Below are positions 14,975 to 28,602 of a stretch of 64,000 bases of DNA, one piece after another. The stretch is from an uncultured Lachnospiraceae bacterium (lineage in GTDB: Bacteria; Bacillota; Clostridia; Lachnospirales; Lachnospiraceae). The DNA lies in NCBI GenBank assembly GCA_900317555.1, contig ONHF01000012.1:1-64000 (forward strand), given 5' to 3'. The translations under genes and the position numbers were made by a program. Under the pieces are notes generated by a model. It had not been told where the DNA came from, ran no database searches, and was given only the letters and a program-made list of their open reading frames with translations. Position 1 is the first letter of the stretch; each line of letters begins with the position of its first letter.

Positions 14975-16045
14975 TCATTCATCCTGCTTAACCACATATT
15001 TGCGCACATTTTCCGCGGTCACCTTCTCGTAGGGCAGATAGATATATTTGCCGTCCCGCAGTCCGAAGCTGTCCAGACTGTCCCCGTGAAAGAGCGCGTC
15101 GCAAAGCTTCGCCATCTTCATTGCCTGCCCGTTCTTGTCATTGTAGACGGTGCCGGCAAGGCTCCCGTCGATCACAGCCGAAAGTCCTTCTTTCGTTCCG
15201 TCGATCCCCAGAAAAACAGGCCGGTTGGTCTCCGTAATCGTCAGTCTGTTATAGGCGTCGATCGCGCCAAGAGCCATCGCGTCGTTATTGGCAAGCACGA
15301 GCTCGATCTTATTGCCGAACTGACCGATTAACTGCGTCATCTTGTTTGCGGCCTGCGCGCGGGAAAAATTGGCAATCTGATAACTCAGCTTGTCCAGCGA
15401 CACGCCTTTTTCAATCAGTGTTGCGACAGCCCTGTCCGTACGCATGATCGTATCCTGATGGCCGGGTTCTCCTTCCAGAACGACATACTGGATTTTTCCG
15501 TCGCTGTTTTTATCAATCCGGGAATTTGAACGGATCGCTGCCGCCGCAAGCTCCCCCTGCATGCGTCCCGACTGCGCCGCGTCCGCGCCGATATAGTACA
15601 GCCGGCTCCATAGATTCATATCTTCCCTGACCGGTTCGCGGTTGAAGAAAATGACAGGGACATCGGCCTCCTTCGCCATATTGATGATATTGGAAGGAAC
15701 TCCCCTGTCGACCAGATTCACGCACAGTACATTGCAGCCGTTATCCAGAAGCTCCTGCACTTCGGCATCTTCCGTGCGCTGCGAGCCCGCCGCGTCCCTG
15801 ATCAGCACCGCAGTCTCTTCGCCGTCCCGCCGCAGACCGTCAACATCTTTCTGAAAAAGCTGCAGGAGCTCCCCTAAAAAGGTGTCTGTCTGATTGTAGA
15901 CAACTACGCCGATTTTCATGTTTTTGCCGCGGGAGGTCCGCGCCGTACAGCCCTGCATCGAAAGCACAGCTGCCGTAAGAACACAGAGCGCGCAAGACAC
16001 AAACAAGGCTTTGATTCTTCTACTGTCTTTTCGTTTCATTCGCAT
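14975..16045 (-). CDS. Galactose/glucose-type periplasmic binding protein, canonical order
   Basis: The 356-residue type I binding protein has the normal MglB order: IGVVVYNQTDTF at the start (Asp54, equivalent to E. coli Asp14), FFNREP (Asn91 equivalent), GEPGHQD (His152 and Asp154) and a calcium-loop sequence DKNSDGKIQ, then LANNDAMALG. The tryptophan that stacks on sugar in E. coli MglB is missing (NFSRAQA in place of MWDTAQA), so specificity may differ. A signal or anchor with an MQGC sequence suggests a lipoprotein (Cys33). The ATG at 16045 follows AAGGTG. It is the last gene of the yesN-yesM sensing operon and probably acts as a sensory receptor for the kinase or an alternative transporter receptor. 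Confidence 0.82.
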   Translation of the reverse strand: MRMKRKDSRRIKALFVSCALCVLTAAVLSMQGCTARTSRGKNMKIGVVVYNQTDTFLGELLQLFQKDVDGLRRDGEETAVLIRDAAGSQRTEDAEVQELLDNGCNVLCVNLVDRGVPSNIINMAKEADVPVIFFNREPVREDMNLWSRLYYIGADAAQSGRMQGELAAAAIRSNSRIDKNSDGKIQYVVLEGEPGHQDTIMRTDRAVATLIEKGVSLDKLSYQIANFSRAQAANKMTQLIGQFGNKIELVLANNDAMALGAIDAYNRLTITETNRPVFLGIDGTKEGLSAVIDGSLAGTVYNDKNGQAMKMAKLCDALFHGDSLDSFGLRDGKYIYLPYEKVTAENVRKYVVKQDE

Positions 16046-16066: not shown

Positions 16067-17023
16067 CTAACGGCTCATCAGATACATCAGTGCGTTGTTA
16101 TCTTCCGCAAAAAGCGTCGACGGCCGCAGTATTTTGTACGGAATGGTCCGCGGCGAAAGGCTGCGGCCGCGGCTGAGTCCCTGCACCGCCGTCTGCACAG
16201 TTTCATATCCCATTGTGAATTCATCCGGAAAAATAACGGCGCGCAGCGCCTTCTTCTCAAGAAGATGCAGATTTTTCTCCGATTTCCCGATGCCGTAAAC
16301 TACGGCGCCGTGCAGATTCCGTGAAAGGGACAGTTCACCCGCAATTCCGAGGTTGTTGTCATCGAGTGCCGCGACGATATCCACCCACTGCTGCCGCTGT
16401 ATGACATCCGCGCCCCCGGTATCCGTAAGGGAATTTTTCACCTTATAAAGGATTTTCACGCCGCTTCCGTCCAAAGCGTCCTGAAGGCCGGAGAGAGCCT
16501 GCTGCGCGTCCCCCGCTGATTCTTCTGGCAGCAGAATGCCGAGTGTCTTTCCGGAAAGGCCGGATTCATAATCTGCGCGGATTTCTTCCCCGACGCTGTG
16601 TCCCATCGCATAGTTGTCCGGCGTAACGCTGCAGACGGACGCATCGGAAACTCCGGCAAGAATAACCGGCATTCTGCCCGAAAGAGCCTGCATCAGTTCC
16701 AGCGCAGCGCCGCCTGTCACCGGCTTTGCGATGAGCGCCGCGGCGCCGGAAGAGACTGTATCCTGCACTGTTTTGTCGAAGTCGGAGGCTTTCATCAGAT
16801 TCACATTTTCCGCGACTGAAAGAACAACACTTTCATCCTCTGCGGCTGCCCGCGCGCCGGACAGGAAGCCCCGCCAGGACGCTTCCGACGACTGGTGAAT
16901 CACAACGCCGATCACCTTCTGCGGCTTCTGCCTGCGGTCCAGCACAAGACTGAGGAGCAGAAAAGACAGCACTGCAGCAAGCAGCAGCTCGATGAGCAGA
17001 AATCTTCTTTTTTCAGTTGCCAT
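16067..17023 (-). CDS. Membrane-anchored type I periplasmic-binding protein, sensor partner
   Basis: The 318-residue protein has an uncleaved N-terminal helix (about 7-28, FLLIELLLAAVLSFLLLSLVL) and no lipobox Cys, followed by a substrate-binding fold: IGVVIHQSSEASW, AALIAKPVTGG, MPVILAGVSD, GKTLGILLPEES, AALDDNNLGIAGE. It should sit on the outer face of the membrane. It begins inside the kinase gene (11-base overlap) with GGAAGGAAAG upstream, so kinase and binding protein are translationally coupled. Family knowledge of YesM-type systems with linked binding proteins suggests a three-component sugar sensor. The ligand-contact residues of MglB are not conserved, so the ligand is unknown. Confidence 0.75.
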   Translation of the reverse strand: MATEKRRFLLIELLLAAVLSFLLLSLVLDRRQKPQKVIGVVIHQSSEASWRGFLSGARAAAEDESVVLSVAENVNLMKASDFDKTVQDTVSSGAAALIAKPVTGGAALELMQALSGRMPVILAGVSDASVCSVTPDNYAMGHSVGEEIRADYESGLSGKTLGILLPEESAGDAQQALSGLQDALDGSGVKILYKVKNSLTDTGGADVIQRQQWVDIVAALDDNNLGIAGELSLSRNLHGAVVYGIGKSEKNLHLLEKKALRAVIFPDEFTMGYETVQTAVQGLSRGRSLSPRTIPYKILRPSTLFAEDNNALMYLMSR

Positions 17024-18893
17024 CGCCCTTTCCTTCCAGTTTCTTTCTGTTCTCTTCGGTATACGGAATCTTCGGAAGATGGACGGTAATTTTTGTACCC
17101 TTATCTTCCTCGCTTTCAACGCTGAGTCCGTACTGCTCCCCCATCAGCAGCCGGATGCGGTTATGCACGTTGACGAGGCCGACACCGGAGCCGTGCTTGT
17201 GCACCCGTTCTCCCTTCGTCAAAACAGCTTCAGCCGTTTCCTCCGGCATCCCGAAGCCGTTATCTTCAACGCGCAGGTAGATGCCGTTTTCTTCTGTTCC
17301 GCCGGAGACGATGATTTTGCCGCCGTCGTCAACATCCATGTCGCCGACGCCGTAGTAAATCGCGTTCTCCAGAAGCGGCTGCAGAATCAGCTTCACTGTG
17401 CAGCAGTCCATAATGTCCTCCGGAAGGTTGAATTCGACGAGAAACCGGTCTTTATATCTGGCTTTCTGGATATTCATGTAACTTCTCGCGTGCTGGATTT
17501 CATCGCGGACAGGAATAATCGTCCTGCCTTTGGACAGGCTGATCCGGAAGAGCTTGGCAAGCTCGGAGATCATAAAGACTGCTTCGTCGTTTTTCCCGCC
17601 TTCGATCATCCAGGTAATGGAATCCAGCGTGTTATACAGAAAGTGCGGATTGATCTGGCTCTGCAAAGCGTCAATCTCGCTGATCCGGCGCAGGTTCTGT
17701 TCGTTCACAATCTGCTGCATCAGGCGGTCGATTCTTTCATACGAGGCCTGTATGGAGCGTCCCAGATGTCGGATTTCCATGGAACCGCCGGGCTCTATCC
17801 GCGGTGCGCCGCCCGCTTCATACGCCTTTACGGAATCATTTAATTCCATAATCGGGCGAGATATTCTGCCGGCGACAACACGGTTTACCGCGAGGACAAT
17901 CATGCCGGCCATTAAAAGCAGAATTTCAATGAAAAGCCGGACATTGAGCATGCCGAGCCGGAAAGAGCTGTTCGGAATGACACTGACCATTTTCCAGCCG
18001 GTGTAACTGATCGAATGGATGATCAGGGTCCTTTTCGTGCCGTTTACAGTTTCTTCGAGAATCCCGTCCGGGTGCTTTGCGGCATCGGATGTATCTTCGG
18101 AAAGTAGTCCTTCCATGATCTGTGCCTTTTGGGGATGCGCAATCAGATTTCCGTCGCTGTCACACAGATAGTAGTACTGCCCCTCCAAAGGACCCGAGAG
18201 CTGCTGCATCATCTGCTCGATATCCGAACTCGAAAAATCAAGAAGAAGGACGCCGGTCTCCGGCTCGTCCCCCGTGTTCAGATCAACCGACCGGGAAAGG
18301 CTGATCACCCGCCGGTAGGAGTCCGCGTCAAACAGATTCTGCACATGCGGAAGAGAAAAATGCGGGTTCTCGATTCCCTCAATGGCTGCCTGAAACCACT
18401 CCTGTCTGGTTACATCCGGTTCCATTTTCTGGTTGGCCACGGGCTCAGCCGCAAGCAGGCTCCCGGAGCTGCTGTATACAGCGATCGTTACAATGGACTC
18501 TTTATCCGCCTCGTACAAAAGGCTCAGCTCTTCAAGGAGCCTGCGGCTGCCGATGTCGTTCTCCCGGATCGAGCTGTAATATGCCGCGTCGGAAACATGC
18601 CGCATACCGTTCAGATACTGTTCCAGCGTCTGGCTGCTCTGCGAGAGTGTTTTCTGCGTGGCTTCAATCGCGTTCTGTCTTGCAACACGGACAAAGCGCC
18701 CGTACAGGGTCAGGCCGATGATCAGCATGATCGCGACAAAGATTACCGTGAACGTAATATTGATTGTTGTCCGGATGCTGCGAAGTCTTGTACCCGCGGC
18801 TTTCCGGATCGGATGGAGGCTGCTGCGCAGCGCGAGCAGTTTTCCTTGAAGCCCCTCCGGCTTCTCCCGCCCTTCCGTTTCCTTCGCGCTCAT
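17013..18893 (-). CDS. YesM-type sensor histidine kinase
   Basis: The 626-residue kinase has membrane helices at about 44-66 and 320-342 that bracket an extracellular double-Cache-like domain, then a HAMP linker (about 343-395), and a LytS/YesM kinase module with phospho-acceptor His417 in INPHFLYNTLDS and the ATP-binding sequences LILQPLLENAIYYG and RVEDNGFGMP. Its ATG overlaps the stop of the YesN regulator gene (ATGA), and the next binding-protein gene starts within its end. The group is one operon predicted to sense a sugar outside the cell, pass the signal to YesN and control the neighbouring mgl or lpl transporters. If the regulator is really frameshifted, signalling would be broken. 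Confidence 0.87.
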   Translation of the reverse strand: MSAKETEGREKPEGLQGKLLALRSSLHPIRKAAGTRLRSIRTTINITFTVIFVAIMLIIGLTLYGRFVRVARQNAIEATQKTLSQSSQTLEQYLNGMRHVSDAAYYSSIRENDIGSRRLLEELSLLYEADKESIVTIAVYSSSGSLLAAEPVANQKMEPDVTRQEWFQAAIEGIENPHFSLPHVQNLFDADSYRRVISLSRSVDLNTGDEPETGVLLLDFSSSDIEQMMQQLSGPLEGQYYYLCDSDGNLIAHPQKAQIMEGLLSEDTSDAAKHPDGILEETVNGTKRTLIIHSISYTGWKMVSVIPNSSFRLGMLNVRLFIEILLLMAGMIVLAVNRVVAGRISRPIMELNDSVKAYEAGGAPRIEPGGSMEIRHLGRSIQASYERIDRLMQQIVNEQNLRRISEIDALQSQINPHFLYNTLDSITWMIEGGKNDEAVFMISELAKLFRISLSKGRTIIPVRDEIQHARSYMNIQKARYKDRFLVEFNLPEDIMDCCTVKLILQPLLENAIYYGVGDMDVDDGGKIIVSGGTEENGIYLRVEDNGFGMPEETAEAVLTKGERVHKHGSGVGLVNVHNRIRLLMGEQYGLSVESEEDKGTKITVHLPKIPYTEENRKKLEGKGDGN

Positions 18894-20300
18894 GCCTTCT
18901 GCTCCATATGCTCGCTTCTGTATCTGGATGGAGACTGCCCGAAAGTCCTTTTGAATACATAACTGAAATAATTCGCGTCTTCATATCCGACGCGCCGGCC
19001 GATAATATAGCTTTTCTCCGAAGATTCGAGAAGAAGCCGGGCTGCCTGTTCCATGCGGTATCCTGTCAGGTACTGAACAAAAGACTTTCCCGTCTCTTTC
19101 TTGAACAGAGACGAAAAATACGAATTGGATAACCCGAGCGTCCGGCAGACCAGATCCAGCGAAAGTGCCGGATTGTCATAGTGATCGCGCACATAGTCCT
19201 GCGCGTCCTGCACCAGAGAGCGTCCCTGCGTGCTGCGCGCACTGCTGAGGCTGTTATGGAAGAAAACCGCCTTTTTGATCACGATGTCCCGCAGCTCGCC
19301 TCGGTCCAGCTGCAGCAGTCGGTCGTACTTGTCGTCTCCCGCGCCCGGCTCTCCACTGGTATCAATCTCGTTCATCGCGGCAAAACGGTACATTGCGCCC
19401 AGCAGTTCCATAACCATCGCATGATACTGCTGGATACTCTTGGCGCCCGCGAGAGTCTCGTCAAAATAACTTGTCAGCGAACTTTTGATCTCTTCCGGCG
19501 TCCCTGTATGTATTTCTTTCAGAAGCTTATGAAGTCCGGAGTCTCCGACATCCTGATAGTTTTTCTCTTTCGGCGCAATCTCCATGATGCTGATCGCACG
19601 CCCCGTGCCGTACAGCACCCTGTAGGAAACCGCTTCGCGCGCGCCAGGCCTTCCCGAGCCTTTCCTGCGCTTCCCGCTGCACGGACATGGAAAGAAGGAG
19701 CGGTGACATTCCCTCCGGCACTTCCGAAGCCGAGGTATGGATATCCACGCAGCACAGAACCGGCCCCGTCAGATCAATCTGATAGTCATTTATATATTTG
19801 GGTATATCCGATTTCGAGATTCTGCCGTCAATCAGAGAAGAATAAAAGTTTGCCTGCAGCAGCGGCAGCGATTCCATGTAGTAATTCTGCAGCTTGCGCA
19901 CGTTCTGTTTCTCCGCGCGCTCCTCGTCGAGCGATTTGCGGAGTCTTTTGAAGCTCTCCGTCAGCTCCTGCGCGTTAACCGGCTTCAGCAGATATTCCTC
20001 CACCTCCAGATGCACGGCTTCCTTCGCGTATTCGAACTCGTCAAAACCGGTGCAAAGAAGAATCCGGACCGCCGGATACTCGTGCTTCAAACGTCGCGCC
20101 AGCTCCAGCCCGTCCATGTACGGCATCTTGATATCCGTCATCACGACGTCCGGCTGGCATTCCTCTGCCATTTCCAGCGCGAGCACCCCGTTGCCCGCGT
20201 GCCCGGCGATTGTAAATCCCAGACCCTCCCAGTCAATCTTATCCATAATCACGCGGATCGCTTCTTCTTCGTCATCCACAAGCAGAACACTGTACGCCAT
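18890..20300 (-). pseudogene. YesN-type response regulator, interrupted by a frameshift
   Basis: Two overlapping frames together make one AraC-type response regulator. The first (from ATG 20300, with GGGAGG upstream) encodes a receiver with Asp9/Asp10, phospho-acceptor Asp56 and Lys106, and a helical linker ending in SMSVQREAQERLG. The second continues in another frame with EAVSYRVLYGTGRAISIMEI and ends in a complete AraC DNA-binding domain (ALSLDLVCRTLGLSNSYFSSLFKKETGKSFVQYL). The frame change falls in an alternating CG tract at 19636-19645. Loss of one GC pair, or gain of one base, explains it. It may be a true mutation, a slippage-prone switch or an assembly error. The gene starts the yesN-yesM-binding protein operon. 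Confidence 0.78.
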
Positions 20301-20370
20301 GCCCTCATCCTCCCGGCAAAACATCATACGCCTATTGTACCTTTCCGCCGGATATTAGAAAACCCGAAAA

Positions 20371-22104: not shown

Positions 22105-23616
22105 TCAAAGGTACTTCGCGCTAAGACGCAGGAGCTCTTCCTGATTCGTTTCCTTTGTGTTCACAATGCCGGCCAGGTGGCCGTTGCTCATGACGCCGAT
22201 CCGGTTCGTGATGCCGAGAATTTCGGGCATTTCCGACGATACGACGATAATAGTTTTGCCCCTTTTGGCCATCGCAATAATCAGCTCGTATATCTCGTAT
22301 TTCGCTCCGACATCAATGCCTCTCGTCGGATCGTCCATCATGAAGATTTTCGGATCCCGTTCGAGCCATTTGCCGAAAATGACCTTCTGCTGATTGCCGC
22401 CGGAGAGTGAGGAAATCAGATCGTCCGGGCCCATGCACTTGGTGTGCATGATTTTGATTTCATCCGCGGTCGCGCGGACCATTTTCTGTTCCGAAAGCGC
22501 GATGCCGGATTTGTAATGGTTCATGTTGGCAATCGTCGTATTGAAGGTCAGATCGCCCTTGAGGAAAAGGCCATTTGCCTTGCGTTCCTCCGTGATCATT
22601 GCAAAGCCGTGTTCCATGGCTTCCTTCGCGCTGCCGAAGTTCATGAGTTTCCCGTCGTAGTAAACACGGCCGGCAGCTCTTGTCCGGACGCCGAAGATGG
22701 TCTCCAGAAGTTCCGTACGGCCGGCGCCGACAAGGCCGTACAGGCCGAAGATTTCGCCTTTTCTAACGTCAAAACTGATATCCTGCAGATGCGGCGCAAA
22801 CTTTGTAGAAAGATGCTGCACCGAGAAAATGACATCGCCGGGTGTATTGTCGACAACGGGGAATCTGTTTTCCAGAGAGCGTCCGACCATGGCGGCGATC
22901 AGCTCGTTCATGTTCGTGTCTTTCGTGCTCTTTGTCATGACAAGACTGCCGTCACGAAGAACCGAGACTTCATCACAGATTTCAAAGATTTCATCCATCT
23001 TGTGCGAGATATAAATCAGTGAAATACCCTGCGCTTTCAGCTTTCGCATCATATTGAAGAGCTTGCGCACTTCCGGAACGGTCAGTGAGGAGGTCGGTTC
23101 GTCGAGAACGATGATCTTCGAATTGTAGGAGATCGCCTTCGCAATTTCGCACATCTGCCGCTGGGAGACGGACATGTTCCTCATGGGCTGTGTCAGGTTG
23201 ACAATCATGCCGAGCTTGCGGAACAGATCCGCCGCTTCCTTTTTCATCCGCATCTCATCGATTACGCCAAGAGAATTGACCGGATATCTGCCGAGGAAAA
23301 GGTTGTCGACGACGCTTCGCTCAAGGCACTGGTTCAGTTCCTGATGAACCATGGCAATCCCGTTCTCAAGCGCGTCCTTGGGCCCTGAAAAGCTGACTTC
23401 CTTTCCATCCAGATAGATATGGCCTTCATCTTTCTGATAAGTACCGAACAGGCACTTCATCATGGTTGACTTTCCGGCGCCGTTCTCTCCCATAAGGCCC
23501 ATGATGGTTCCTTCCTTCACATCCATGTTGATGTGATCCAGAACCCTGTTACGGCCGAAGGATTTGCACATGCCGCGAATCGATAAGACAATTTTATCTT
23601 TCTTATCTTCTGCCAT
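22105..23616 (-). CDS. mglA: Galactose-type ABC transporter ATP-binding protein
   Basis: The 503-residue cytoplasmic ATPase carries two ABC modules, as usual for MglA/RbsA. The first (about 8-245) has Walker A GENGAGKST, signature MSVSQRQ and Walker B IIVLDEP. The second (about 260-500) has the customary degenerate Walker A GLVGAGRTE and signature LSGGNQQKV with MMDDPTRGID. It powers uptake through MglC from the permuted MglB receptor. The gene lies 113 bases after mglB across a strong hairpin that probably lowers its expression relative to mglB. Confidence 0.94.
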   Translation of the reverse strand: MAEDKKDKIVLSIRGMCKSFGRNRVLDHINMDVKEGTIMGLMGENGAGKSTMMKCLFGTYQKDEGHIYLDGKEVSFSGPKDALENGIAMVHQELNQCLERSVVDNLFLGRYPVNSLGVIDEMRMKKEAADLFRKLGMIVNLTQPMRNMSVSQRQMCEIAKAISYNSKIIVLDEPTSSLTVPEVRKLFNMMRKLKAQGISLIYISHKMDEIFEICDEVSVLRDGSLVMTKSTKDTNMNELIAAMVGRSLENRFPVVDNTPGDVIFSVQHLSTKFAPHLQDISFDVRKGEIFGLYGLVGAGRTELLETIFGVRTRAAGRVYYDGKLMNFGSAKEAMEHGFAMITEERKANGLFLKGDLTFNTTIANMNHYKSGIALSEQKMVRATADEIKIMHTKCMGPDDLISSLSGGNQQKVIFGKWLERDPKIFMMDDPTRGIDVGAKYEIYELIIAMAKRGKTIIVVSSEMPEILGITNRIGVMSNGHLAGIVNTKETNQEELLRLSAKYL

Positions 23617-23729: not shown

Positions 23730-25061
23730 TTACTGATTCAGCAGGGATGTGTAAGCTGCCGCGTTATCTGTCTTAACCATGTTGATCGCGAATGCGTCAT
23801 ACTGGCTCGGATTTCCAAGGCGGTTCGTGATGTTGGACTCTGTCTGGCCGTCGCCGCCGATGTAGTCTACATCGAGGTTGAGAAGGTCATCATAGTTCTG
23901 CAGCAGAGGCTGATATGTAGCGCTCAGGAAGTTATCCGCCGCGTTGTAGATATCAAGCCATACCTTCTTGGTCGGGTGCTTGGAAGCATCCAGCTGGTTG
24001 GAAACCGGAGCGTAAGTCTTGGTAGCATCCGTGAAGTCCTGATAGTTGTCTGCTGTAACTGCTACGTTCAAAGCATAGTAGGAACGCGCGTCAGCATCAT
24101 ATCTGTAAACATCGTCTGTAAGTACGTTTCCAGCCTCATCTGCTGTGCCGATACCTGTATCAATATCAACACCGTCAAGAGCATTGCGCAGTGTGCGGAG
24201 TGTCAGATAAGCCTGTACGTCCGCATGCTGGGAAATAGTTCCGCCGTAGCCGTCCGCGATTGCCGCAACCGCGTCGCTGTTTGCGTCATAACCAAACGTA
24301 GGAACCTTCTTATCCTTGCTCCATGCGTTGAACATCGACATGCCCATACCATCGTTGTTGGAAACAACGATATCGATCTGATCGCCGAACGAAGAAGACC
24401 ATGTTCCGATCGCGTTACCTGCTGTAGCTGCATCCCATGTAGCGCCTGCAGAGTTCTTCATTTCCTGAGAAGCCAGCTCTCGAACCTTGAAGGTCTTGTC
24501 GCCGACTTTGAGTTCCGCATCCTGAACATCGGTTGCAGTTCCATCTACGTTTGTGCCTACCGGCTGAGAATCAATCGCGCCATCCTTCTCGACAGCGGTT
24601 CCAAGAGCCTTGCGGACGCCTCTTGTACGTGCGATCGAATCGTTATGTCCGATATCGCCGATTGCAAGTACGTATCCGATAATGCCGTCACCGTTTCGAT
24701 CGATTGTATCCGCGTTTGCCTGGATATAGTCGGCAACCATCTGGCCCTGCAGCTCGGCACCCTGATTTGCGTCGAATCCTACATAGTAGGTGTTCGCGTT
24801 GTAGTTCAGAGCATCCTTGTCAAGCTCGCCTGTGGAGCTGTTGGAAGGCTGACGGTTGAACCATGTAAGAGGCTTGTCCTTGTTGGCTACATCGCCGGAA
24901 GGAGCCGCTGCCTCTGCCTGTGTGGAAGCCGATGCAGCTTCGGTTGCCGCGGTATCAGCCTTCGTCGATGCTGCGGGAGCGCTCGAATTGGAACCGCAGC
25001 CTGCAGCGCCAAGGCCGAGAACTACTGCGGTTGCAATCGATAACATACCTTTTTTGTTCAT
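23730..25061 (-). CDS. mglB: Galactose-type binding lipoprotein with circularly permuted fold
   Basis: The 443-residue receptor has a lipoprotein signal (GLGAAGC, Cys22), a 40-residue Ala/Ser/Thr-rich linker and then a type I sugar-binding domain in permuted order. It begins at LTWFNRQPS (equivalent to E. coli FFNKEPS, Asn91) and runs through GDIGHND (His139, Asp141), Arg145, calcium-loop-like DRNGDGIIG, TWDAATAG (Trp209), VSNNDGM and FGYDANSD (Asp259). It then ends with the segment that normally starts MglB: KVWLDIYNAADNFLS (Asp376, Phe378) to DAFAINMVKTDNAA. All sugar-contacting residues of E. coli MglB have an equivalent. It is the first gene of the mgl operon. The ATG at 25061 has GGGTGG upstream. 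Confidence 0.85.
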   Translation of the reverse strand: MNKKGMLSIATAVVLGLGAAGCGSNSSAPAASTKADTAATEAASASTQAEAAAPSGDVANKDKPLTWFNRQPSNSSTGELDKDALNYNANTYYVGFDANQGAELQGQMVADYIQANADTIDRNGDGIIGYVLAIGDIGHNDSIARTRGVRKALGTAVEKDGAIDSQPVGTNVDGTATDVQDAELKVGDKTFKVRELASQEMKNSAGATWDAATAGNAIGTWSSSFGDQIDIVVSNNDGMGMSMFNAWSKDKKVPTFGYDANSDAVAAIADGYGGTISQHADVQAYLTLRTLRNALDGVDIDTGIGTADEAGNVLTDDVYRYDADARSYYALNVAVTADNYQDFTDATKTYAPVSNQLDASKHPTKKVWLDIYNAADNFLSATYQPLLQNYDDLLNLDVDYIGGDGQTESNITNRLGNPSQYDAFAINMVKTDNAAAYTSLLNQ

Positions 25062-26138: not shown

Positions 26139-28517
26139 TCATGCAAACAGAAGTACCACTGCATGCACAATAAACGCGACTACCCATGCCATCACGCACT
26201 GGAAAACAACAACAAAGGCTGCCCACTTCGCGCCAAGCTCGCGTTTGATCGAAGCGATTGCCGCAACGCACGGCGTATACAGCAGGCAGAAGACAAGCAG
26301 CGCCGCAGCTGATGCCGTCGAAAGTGTCGCGGTCAGCTCCTGCGTGCTGCCGTACATGACATTTAAAGTCGCGACAACGCTTTCCTTCGCAAGGAACCCG
26401 GTAATCAGAGCAGTCGTAACTTTCCATGTACCAAAGCCAAGCGGCGCGAAAACAGGTGCGATAAAGCCCGCAATAACTGCGAGGATGCTCTTTCCCGAAT
26501 CATTTACCAGACTGAAATTCAGGCCGAAATGCTGCAGGAACCAGATCACGATCGAAGCCATGAAAATGATCGTGAAAGCGCGCTGGAGAAAGTCTCTCGA
26601 CTTTTCCCAGAGAAGCTGCAGCACGTTCTTCGCACTCGGCATCCTGTAGTTCGGCAGCTCCATGACAAAAGGCACCGCCTCTCCTTTGAAATACGTGTTC
26701 TTGGAAACGAGCGCAGTCAGAATTCCGACGAGAATGCCGAGAAGGTACAGCCCGACCATGATGAGCGCGCCTTTTCCCGGGAAAAACGCCGCCGTGAAGA
26801 ACGCGTAAATCGGAAGCTTTGCCGTACAGCTCATAAACGGAACCAGCATGATGGTCATCTTGCGGTCTCTGTCCGATGGCAGGGTTCTGGCGGACATAAC
26901 TGCGGGAACCGAGCAGCCAAAGCCGACAAGCATCGGTACAATGCTGCGCCCCGAAAGGCCGATCTTGCGCAGCAGCTTGTCCATGACAAAAGCCACCCTG
27001 GCCATATAGCCGGTGTCTTCCAGCAGGGAGAGGAAGAAAAACAGCACGACAATCAGAGGCAGGAAACTGATCACACTGCCGACGCCGCTGAATATGCCGT
27101 CGGTCACAAGCGAGCGCAATCCCTCATTTACGTTCGCCGCGCGCATTGCTGTGTCGGTAAGTGCCCCCAGCTTGTCAACGCCAAGTTCCATCAGGCCCTG
27201 CAGGTAAGCGCCGATCACGTTAAAGGTCAGCCAGAATACGAGCGCCATGATAATGATGAAAGCCGGTATTGCCGTGTATTTACCGGTCAGAATGCGGTCG
27301 ATCTTCCGGCTTCTTTCATGCTCCTTGCTTTCCTTCGGCTTGATCACCGTTTCGCGGACAAGCTTTTCAATGAAATCAAAGCGCATGTCGGCAATCGATG
27401 CCGCCCTGTCAAGACCGCGCTCTTTTTCCATCTGCAGGATGATGTGATCAATCATCTCCTTTTCATTCTGCTCGAGCTGCAGCGCTTCCAGGATCCTTTC
27501 GTCTCCCTCAACCACCTTGGTCGCGGCAAAACGGACCGGGATCTGTGCGCGCTCCGCATGATCCTCAATCAGGTGCATGATTGCGTGCAGCGCTCTGTGT
27601 ACAGCGCCGCCGTCTTCCTCCGGGTCACAGAAATCCTGCCTTCCGGGCCTCTCCTGATATTTCGCCACATGGATCGCATGCCGTACCAGCTCGTCGATAC
27701 CCTCGTTCTTGCTCGCCGAAATCGGAACAACCGGTACACCGAGCATTTCCTCCATCCGGTTGATCAGAATGGAGCCGCCGTTTCCCTGCACTTCATCCAT
27801 CATATTCAGGGCGACAACCATCGGCACATCCAGCTCCATCAGCTGCATCGTGAGATAGAGGTTACGCTCGATATTCGTCGCGTCCACGATATTGATAATG
27901 CCGGTCGGCTTTTCTTCGAGTATGAATTGTCTGGAAACCAGCTCTTCCTGCGAATAGGGAGACATCGAATAAATCCCCGGAAGGTCTGTCACTTCCGTTC
28001 CTGGATGTCCTTTGATGGCGCCGCTCTTCCGGTCTACCGTAACGCCCGGGAAATTTCCTACATGCTGGTTGGAGCCGGTCAGCTGATTGAACAGGGTTGT
28101 TTTGCCGGAATTCTGGTTTCCGGCAAGCGCGAAGGTCAGCTTTGTGCCGTCCGGAAGCGGGTGCTCGCCCTTCTTCACATGATACCGGCCGTCTTCGCCA
28201 AGACCCGGATGTTCGCCGGCTCTTGTGTAGGGCAGCTGCGAAGCTGCGCGTTCCGAAACCTGCTGCCCTTCTGCCGTCCTGCTCTCGCCTGCCTTCGCTT
28301 TCCGGATCTGTATTTTCGCCGCGTCGTCCAGACGGAGCGTCAGCTCATAACCATGAATCAGAAGCTCCATGGGATCTCCCATGGGAGCGTACTTGACGAG
28401 GGTCACACGGGCGCCGGGAATTACACCCATGTCCAGAAAGTGCTGCCGGAGTTCTCCTTCTCCACCTACTTTTTCGACAACCGCGCTCTCTCCGATTTCC
28501 AGTTCTCTCAGTGTCAT
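26139..28517 (-). CDS. feoB: Ferrous iron transporter: FeoA domain fused to FeoB
   Basis: The 792-residue protein starts with a complete FeoA SH3-like domain (about 1-75, MTLRELEIGE, GVIPGARVTLVKYAPMGDP). A polar linker (75-125) leads to the FeoB G-domain with G1 GNQNSGKT (133-140), DLPG (178-181) and NMMD, then the cytoplasmic helical domain and about eight membrane helices with Gate motifs (VGFGCSVPAVMSARTL, FMSCTAKLPIYAFF). It imports Fe2+ across the cytoplasmic membrane. The ATG at 28517 is set by GGAAGAGG; a TTG 54 bases upstream would coincide with the transcription start. FeoA and FeoB are usually separate proteins. A palindromic promoter site suggests metal-dependent repression, possibly by the DtxR-type regulator at 35917. 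Confidence 0.93.
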   Translation of the reverse strand: MTLRELEIGESAVVEKVGGEGELRQHFLDMGVIPGARVTLVKYAPMGDPMELLIHGYELTLRLDDAAKIQIRKAKAGESRTAEGQQVSERAASQLPYTRAGEHPGLGEDGRYHVKKGEHPLPDGTKLTFALAGNQNSGKTTLFNQLTGSNQHVGNFPGVTVDRKSGAIKGHPGTEVTDLPGIYSMSPYSQEELVSRQFILEEKPTGIINIVDATNIERNLYLTMQLMELDVPMVVALNMMDEVQGNGGSILINRMEEMLGVPVVPISASKNEGIDELVRHAIHVAKYQERPGRQDFCDPEEDGGAVHRALHAIMHLIEDHAERAQIPVRFAATKVVEGDERILEALQLEQNEKEMIDHIILQMEKERGLDRAASIADMRFDFIEKLVRETVIKPKESKEHERSRKIDRILTGKYTAIPAFIIIMALVFWLTFNVIGAYLQGLMELGVDKLGALTDTAMRAANVNEGLRSLVTDGIFSGVGSVISFLPLIVVLFFFLSLLEDTGYMARVAFVMDKLLRKIGLSGRSIVPMLVGFGCSVPAVMSARTLPSDRDRKMTIMLVPFMSCTAKLPIYAFFTAAFFPGKGALIMVGLYLLGILVGILTALVSKNTYFKGEAVPFVMELPNYRMPSAKNVLQLLWEKSRDFLQRAFTIIFMASIVIWFLQHFGLNFSLVNDSGKSILAVIAGFIAPVFAPLGFGTWKVTTALITGFLAKESVVATLNVMYGSTQELTATLSTASAAALLVFCLLYTPCVAAIASIKRELGAKWAAFVVVFQCVMAWVVAFIVHAVVLLFA

Positions 28518-28559
28518 TTTGGCCTCTTCCATTATGTCTTTCACTGTGCTTTTTATTGT

Positions 28560-28602
28560 TTGTTTGCGCAAACAAGTATAGCATACGTTGCCTGTAGTGC
28601 AA
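28560..28602 (-). promoter_or_regulatory. feo promoter with perfect 16-bp palindromic operator
   Basis: On the minus strand TTGCAC (28602-28597), 16 bases and an extended TGC-TATACT (-10 at 28580-28575) form a strong promoter. The perfect palindrome TTGTTTGCGCAAACAA (28575-28560) begins at the end of the -10 and covers the start point, a classical repressor position. The match to any known metal-regulator box is not established. Confidence 0.7.

Follow-up and report, generated by a model that had tools for sequence, protein, structure and literature searches.

The receptor gene and its neighbours

The window (the whole 64,000-nucleotide stretch of an uncultured Lachnospiraceae genome that was analysed) carries on its minus strand, in this order, genes for a permuted receptor, MglA, MglC, a response regulator, a dCache kinase, a Peripla_BP_4 protein, and a canonical MglB-like protein (Table 1). 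The receptor gene adjoins those of an MglA-type ATPase and an MglC-type permease, which is the arrangement of MglBAC (CUT2) importers. The initial annotation had placed the receptor gene at the right coordinates without a strand, which is minus. The response regulator gene is broken into two frames (18890-20327, minus strand); the frames listed for its relatives have 535-593 aa in 57 of 58 cases and 317 aa in the other, and at a 99 per cent identical locus (L019) the regulator is one 542-aa frame. The split reflects a genuine lesion or a mistake in the assembly. An 810-aa frame at 26139-28571 (minus strand) is presumably, judging by eye, FeoA fused to FeoB.

Table 1. Features of the receptor locus in the window.
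Feature	Coordinates	Strand	Basis or remark
Predicted circularly permuted MglB-type sugar-binding lipoprotein, 443 aa + stop	23730-25061	-	single open frame
Lipoprotein signal peptide, lipobox ends at C22	24996-25061	-	read from sequence
MglB body, residues 65-344 (E. coli mature ~87 to C-terminus), now N-terminal	24030-24869	-	Pfam, hhalign
Putative extra linker, residues 345-363	23973-24029	-	phmmer PDB match and PMC4990184
Probable MglB N-terminal segment (Peripla_BP_7), residues 364-443, with D376/N377/F378 = D14/N15/F16	23733-23972	-	Pfam, hhalign
MglA ATPase	22105-23616	-	NF008215, 657.4 bits, under its 828 cut-off
MglC permease, 553 aa	20428-22089	-	NF007014 at 219-553, 274.9 bits (< 386 cut-off); BPD_transp_2 at 257-541
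MglC N-terminal extension, ~205 residues, predicted long helices	21475-22080	-	BLAST, AlphaFold
Response regulator, receiver part	19527-20327	-	frame differs from DNA-binding part
AraC-type DNA-binding part of the same response regulator	18890-19618	-	different frame from receiver
dCache_1 / His_kinase sensor kinase	17013-18893	-	domain search
Peripla_BP_4 protein, hydrophobic N-terminal stretch, no lipobox by reading	16067-17119	-	Pfam
Canonical-order MglB-like protein, lipobox by reading	14975-16045	-	Pfam

By reading, the lipobox cysteine C22 is followed by a low-complexity linker and then by the motif LTWFNRQPS. Pfam aligns Peripla_BP_4 profile positions 93-256 with receptor residues 88-297 and matches Peripla_BP_7 (PF18610) at residues 364-434 over 71 of its 71 positions (140.9 bits, above the gathering cut-off of 36.8). 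One canonical MglB HMM matches the receptor in the order 85-172, 172-294, 7-80, with the third piece weak when taken alone (i-Evalue 0.0025, 3.9 bits). Together with hhalign, these matches bear out the segment order proposed in the initial annotation, in which MglB from about residue 85 to its end comes first and the MglB N-terminal segment last. The NCBIfam equivalog model of E. coli-type MglB (NF011924) gives the receptor 86.7 bits, under its curated cut-off of 420. The window receptor (P0001) is matched end to end, in the same permuted order, at all 98 gene-carrying loci, the window's included; 18 of these come from genome searches and 80 from a named collection (a few are one genome present in two collections), and they hold 95 distinct core sequences. 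The segment stands at both ends of the chain in none of the 98 permuted receptors. These sequence comparisons support the reading of the receptor as a circular permutation of an MglB-type sugar receptor.

All ten sugar contacts of E. coli MglB map onto the receptor when it is aligned by hhalign to 43 canonical frames and E. coli MglB: D14, F16, N91, H152, and D154 correspond to D376, F378, N69, H139, and D141, and R158, W183, N211, D236, and N256 to R145, W209, N236, D259, and Q278, respectively. None of the mapped positions varies across the 98 loci, of which the window's is one. Every equivalence listed in the initial annotation is correct, and N256, which was absent from its list, is changed to Q. 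At the calcium site, D134, N136, D138, Q140, Q142, and E205 correspond to D121, N123, D125, I127, G129, and D230. The earlier claim that the calcium loop is kept holds for D121, N123 (97 of 98 loci), and D125 and fails at other positions, with G129 replacing Q142 and D230 replacing E205, changes that also occur in TpMglB-2 of Treponema pallidum (PMC4990184). Both the glucose contacts and the calcium loop of the receptor agree with Table 2 and the text of that paper.

A published permuted class and the origin of the moved segment

In a phmmer search of the PDB, receptor residues 60-441 match residues 19-385 of the TpMglB-2 chain 5JX2 (E = 9.2e-90), and full-length matches to 5JX2, 6BGD, and 6BGC range from 9.2e-90 to 8.7e-88; canonical MglB chains follow far behind, and their best stretches cover part of the receptor. 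Since the AlphaFold model of the receptor itself is of poor quality (mean pLDDT 57.3, with an rmsd of about 10 A in Foldseek), its fold rests on homology with the solved TpMglB-2. The four best PDB matches that Foldseek finds with this model are all TpMglB-2 entries, and the identity in these alignments is 37-38 per cent. Brautigam et al. 2016 (PMC4990184) stated that TpMglB-2 (Tp0684) is circularly permuted, solved its structure, reported glucose binding and conformational change, and put forward 'Type Ic / Cluster Bc' as a name for the class. They noted that other treponemes share the permuted topology, as do many Gram-positive species, many of which are commensals of the gut. The class is also marked by the N-lobe strand order 5-4-6-1-2-3 and a crossover through a fourth hinge, and for these the AlphaFold model of the window receptor is too poor a guide. 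The window receptor belongs to this class, and the permutation itself was already known. The statement in the initial annotation that no natural permutation had been published in this receptor family is overturned by the 2016 paper and by PDB entry 5JX2.

A previously unrecognised natural permutation is accordingly next to impossible: our literature and PDB searches gave nothing in its favour, publication dates from 2016 (PMC4990184), and the TpMglB-2 structures 5JX2, 6BGC, and 6BGD were released in 2016 and 2018. We rejected the novelty of the permutation on these grounds. A misassembly or frameshift that joined parts of two adjacent canonical genes would fit a window genome in 32 contigs, 87 per cent complete and probably assembled from a metagenome, with a split response regulator close by. 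However, all 98 loci match P0001 end to end in one order, across many assemblies that include isolates and complete chromosomes, and the same order is found on two complete plasmids and in a crystallised homolog. An assembly artefact is therefore excluded for practical purposes, and this reading was rejected as well.

For the C-terminal segment, an origin from a different gene, with convergence on the same place in the fold, was raised as possible in PMC4990184, where the identity of the moved part to the E. coli N-terminus is given as 13 per cent. Several of our own results lean the same way: 16 of 73 aligned residues are identical between the moved segment and E. coli MglB, 32 of 44 canonical sequences score below 5 bits with the segment HMM, the segment profile (96 of the 98 sequences, two being missed by the anchor motif) is shallow (Neff 1.3), and the segment match drops to probability 32 (E = 4.9e-4) in the whole-receptor alignment by hhalign. 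On its own, however, the segment profile finds columns 28-97, the N-terminus, of the canonical alignment (43 canonical frames and E. coli MglB; hhalign E = 3.6e-5, probability 71) and sets D376-N377-F378 on D14-N15-F16, in register. Its score of 34.3 is reached by none of 200 column-shuffled profiles (best 24.9), the reversed segment profile scores 15.5, and the canonical alignment without its first 120 columns gives 10.2. With hmmsearch, 12 of the 44 canonical sequences (E. coli is counted twice) reach at least 5 bits, compared with none of 44 reversed sequences and 4 of 1100 shuffled ones, and the better-scoring ones align with the segment HMM just upstream of their FNxEP motif. We consider a different-gene origin unlikely. 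Descent of the moved segment from the MglB N-terminus has good support, short of proof, and the segment-profile match with its lower-scoring shuffled controls speaks for the homology of residues 365-443 assumed in the initial annotation. This result bears on the possibility raised in PMC4990184: homology between the moved segment and the MglB N-terminus now looks likely. Tandem genes of the MglB family, such as those at the locus, would offer ready material for a permutation.

The sensor-linked locus and its distribution

Of 150 genomes of the window's family, 17 contain PF18610, as do 2 of 398 in a phylum sample and 4 of 391 in a class sample; each count includes the window genome. The 80 named loci extend no more than about 5.5 kb to each side. 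In all 80 the receptor is followed by an MglA frame, and 76 include an MglC frame; three of the other four end inside MglA, and in L066 the MglA frame is shortened and MglC has no match. The regulator follows MglC in 51 of the 80, sensor genes lie upstream only in nine, and 20, including the four without an MglC match, have neither arrangement. Longer regions were taken from relatives (15 of the 16 other PF18610 genomes of the family, G001 with its short contig being left out, plus G218). The seven genes stand in identical order in ten of these 16 regions, the sensor genes lie upstream instead in four (L133, L138, L143, and L145), and no sensor genes lie beside the operon in two (L135 and L144, the latter on a contig that ends there).

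Of 20 further regions, 19 were retrieved for canonical MglB-type matches and one (L165) extends a permuted locus. In 15 of the 19, the neighbours of canonical MglB, MglA, and MglC include a kinase and a response regulator of matching type, and two versions of one sensor-linked locus therefore exist. MglA identity to the window's protein is 83-91 per cent in the 16 permuted regions and 39-53 per cent in the canonical set, a range that leaves out two unrelated ATPases at 26 per cent.

The canonical MglB-like paralogue matches Peripla_BP_4 positions 1-256 in order and scores 218.5 bits with NF011924, also under the 420 cut-off; its residue at the W183 contact is F. The initial annotation took it as an internal control of canonical order, which it has. 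Its position beside a histidine kinase and a response regulator makes a role as sensor-side receptor more likely than one as a plain transport control. The neighbouring Peripla_BP_4 protein is a probable partner of the kinase.

A tblastn search found the permuted receptor in two plasmid records. The whole seven-gene locus, from permuted receptor to canonical paralogue, lies on the 251,725-base Agathobacter rectalis plasmid NZ_CP143948.1 (L171), with an integrase, an IS91-family transposase, and a MobA/MobL gene no more than about 10 kb away; PLSDB types this plasmid as non-mobilizable. Plasmid pTS2 of Treponema saccharophilum carries the receptor, MglA, and a 562-residue MglC. Both occurrences fit the horizontal exchange of the permuted receptor suggested in PMC4990184. 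An orphan, diverged permuted receptor (L175, 9642-10913, minus strand) is 57 per cent identical to the window's and, by reading, has I at the sugar contact D141; no MglA or MglC match lies beside it within the fetched 16 kb.

The extended permease and the lipid anchor

About 205 residues precede the normal permease in the window MglC. BLAST matches this extension in 92 of 92 MglC frames of permuted loci (90 of them distinct), one of which (L074) holds only its end, and the canonical set (19 MglC frames: that of E. coli and 18 of the family) gives no match either by BLAST or with an unfiltered extension HMM. Used alone as a query, the extension finds the PF18610-bearing genomes of the family, 17 of 150, and no others; in G001 it lies on a different contig. 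Searched for with the alignment in the 391 genomes of the class sample, it turns up in three genomes, all among the four with PF18610; the fourth of these has an orphan diverged receptor, and the 16 kb fetched from it contain no MglA or MglC match. The N-terminal part of T. saccharophilum MglC (L170, 10714-12402) also matches the extension HMM (47 bits, net of a bias correction of 21; E = 1.3e-15 in a search against ten proteins), which carries the pairing of receptor and extension, in one example, to a second phylum. AlphaFold predicts long helices for the extension (mean pLDDT 88.1), and no convincing PDB match to it was found. No published description of an MglC N-terminal extension or coiled coil was found in the open-licence literature, among the matches listed, by title. 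The pairing of the permuted receptor with an extended MglC looks new.

PMC4990184 proposed that the permuted topology may adapt the receptor to membrane anchoring. By a regular expression, a lipobox-like site is found in 92 of 98 permuted receptors (six fail) and in 14 of 17 canonical transporter-type receptors, or 14 of 16 without E. coli, all from the window's family; the three that fail are E. coli MglB, one other, and one that by reading is a fragment. This test is crude: only 17 of 33 sensor-type proteins passed, and some that failed look lipoprotein-like by eye. Because canonical transporter-type receptors are also mostly lipoproteins, anchoring alone does not explain the permutation, and by these motif counts the tethering explanation given in the paper looks insufficient. 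Five permuted receptors (L050, L070, L088, L091, and L006) have no clear lipobox in their signal peptide and are therefore possibly released rather than lipid-anchored.

With a probability of roughly 0.94, we regard the window receptor as the lipid-anchored glucose/galactose receptor of an MglBAC-type (CUT2) ABC importer, of Type Ic/Cluster Bc, with a hexose as its presumed ligand. Its chain would start near MglB residue 85, run to the normal C-terminus, cross the linker, and end with the first ~80 residues; given this start and end, both termini would lie in one lobe, as in TpMglB-2. The sugar cleft would be rebuilt from the same residues as in canonical MglB. Sugar would close the two lobes, the closed receptor would dock on MglC, and MglA would drive import. 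Sugar-dependent control of expression is probably the task of the adjacent sensor kinase and response regulator, together with the two further binding proteins.

As a further member of a published class, the receptor alone carries little weight. More tentatively, and with more doubt than confidence, we suggest that the permuted receptor and the ~205-residue MglC extension evolved as a functional pair and make up a distinct, horizontally mobile transporter subtype, whose cassette replaces canonical mglBAC at the same sensor-linked Lachnospiraceae locus and has been exchanged with treponemes. The permutation may then fit the receptor to its permease rather than serve tethering, and our guess is that the extension regulates or clusters the importer. 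The pairing offers a concrete new hypothesis for the persistence of the permuted form.

Comparison with known systems

Systems of the XylFII-LytS-YesN type carry out three-component sugar sensing. In gene arrangement and domain type, the sensor side of the window locus resembles them in having binding proteins beside a kinase and an AraC-type response regulator and differs in its dCache_1 kinase and its two further binding proteins. The regular expression finds no lipobox in 20 of 21 proteins of the type encoded at 16067-17119, and the three whose sequences were displayed begin with a hydrophobic stretch. E. coli MglB, of the canonical Type I / Cluster B, shares all ten contact positions and 76 of 220 aligned body residues with the window receptor, but has the canonical segment order; E. 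coli MglC is a short, 339-residue open frame without the extension.

The closest likeness is to TpMglB-2 (PMC4990184), with which the receptor has in common the permuted order end to end, the contact set with N256 changed to Q, the calcium-loop changes Q142 to G and E205 to D, and its nature as a lipoprotein. The putative linker at residues 345-363 is equivalent, by position only, to the fourth hinge or extended connection described there. The D14 equivalent is D376 in the window receptor but N311 in T. pallidum TpMglB-2; by reading, it is D in the T. saccharophilum receptor. Unlike the gene of TpMglB-2, that of the window receptor is part of a Lachnospiraceae-type set and shows linkage to a sensor kinase locus.
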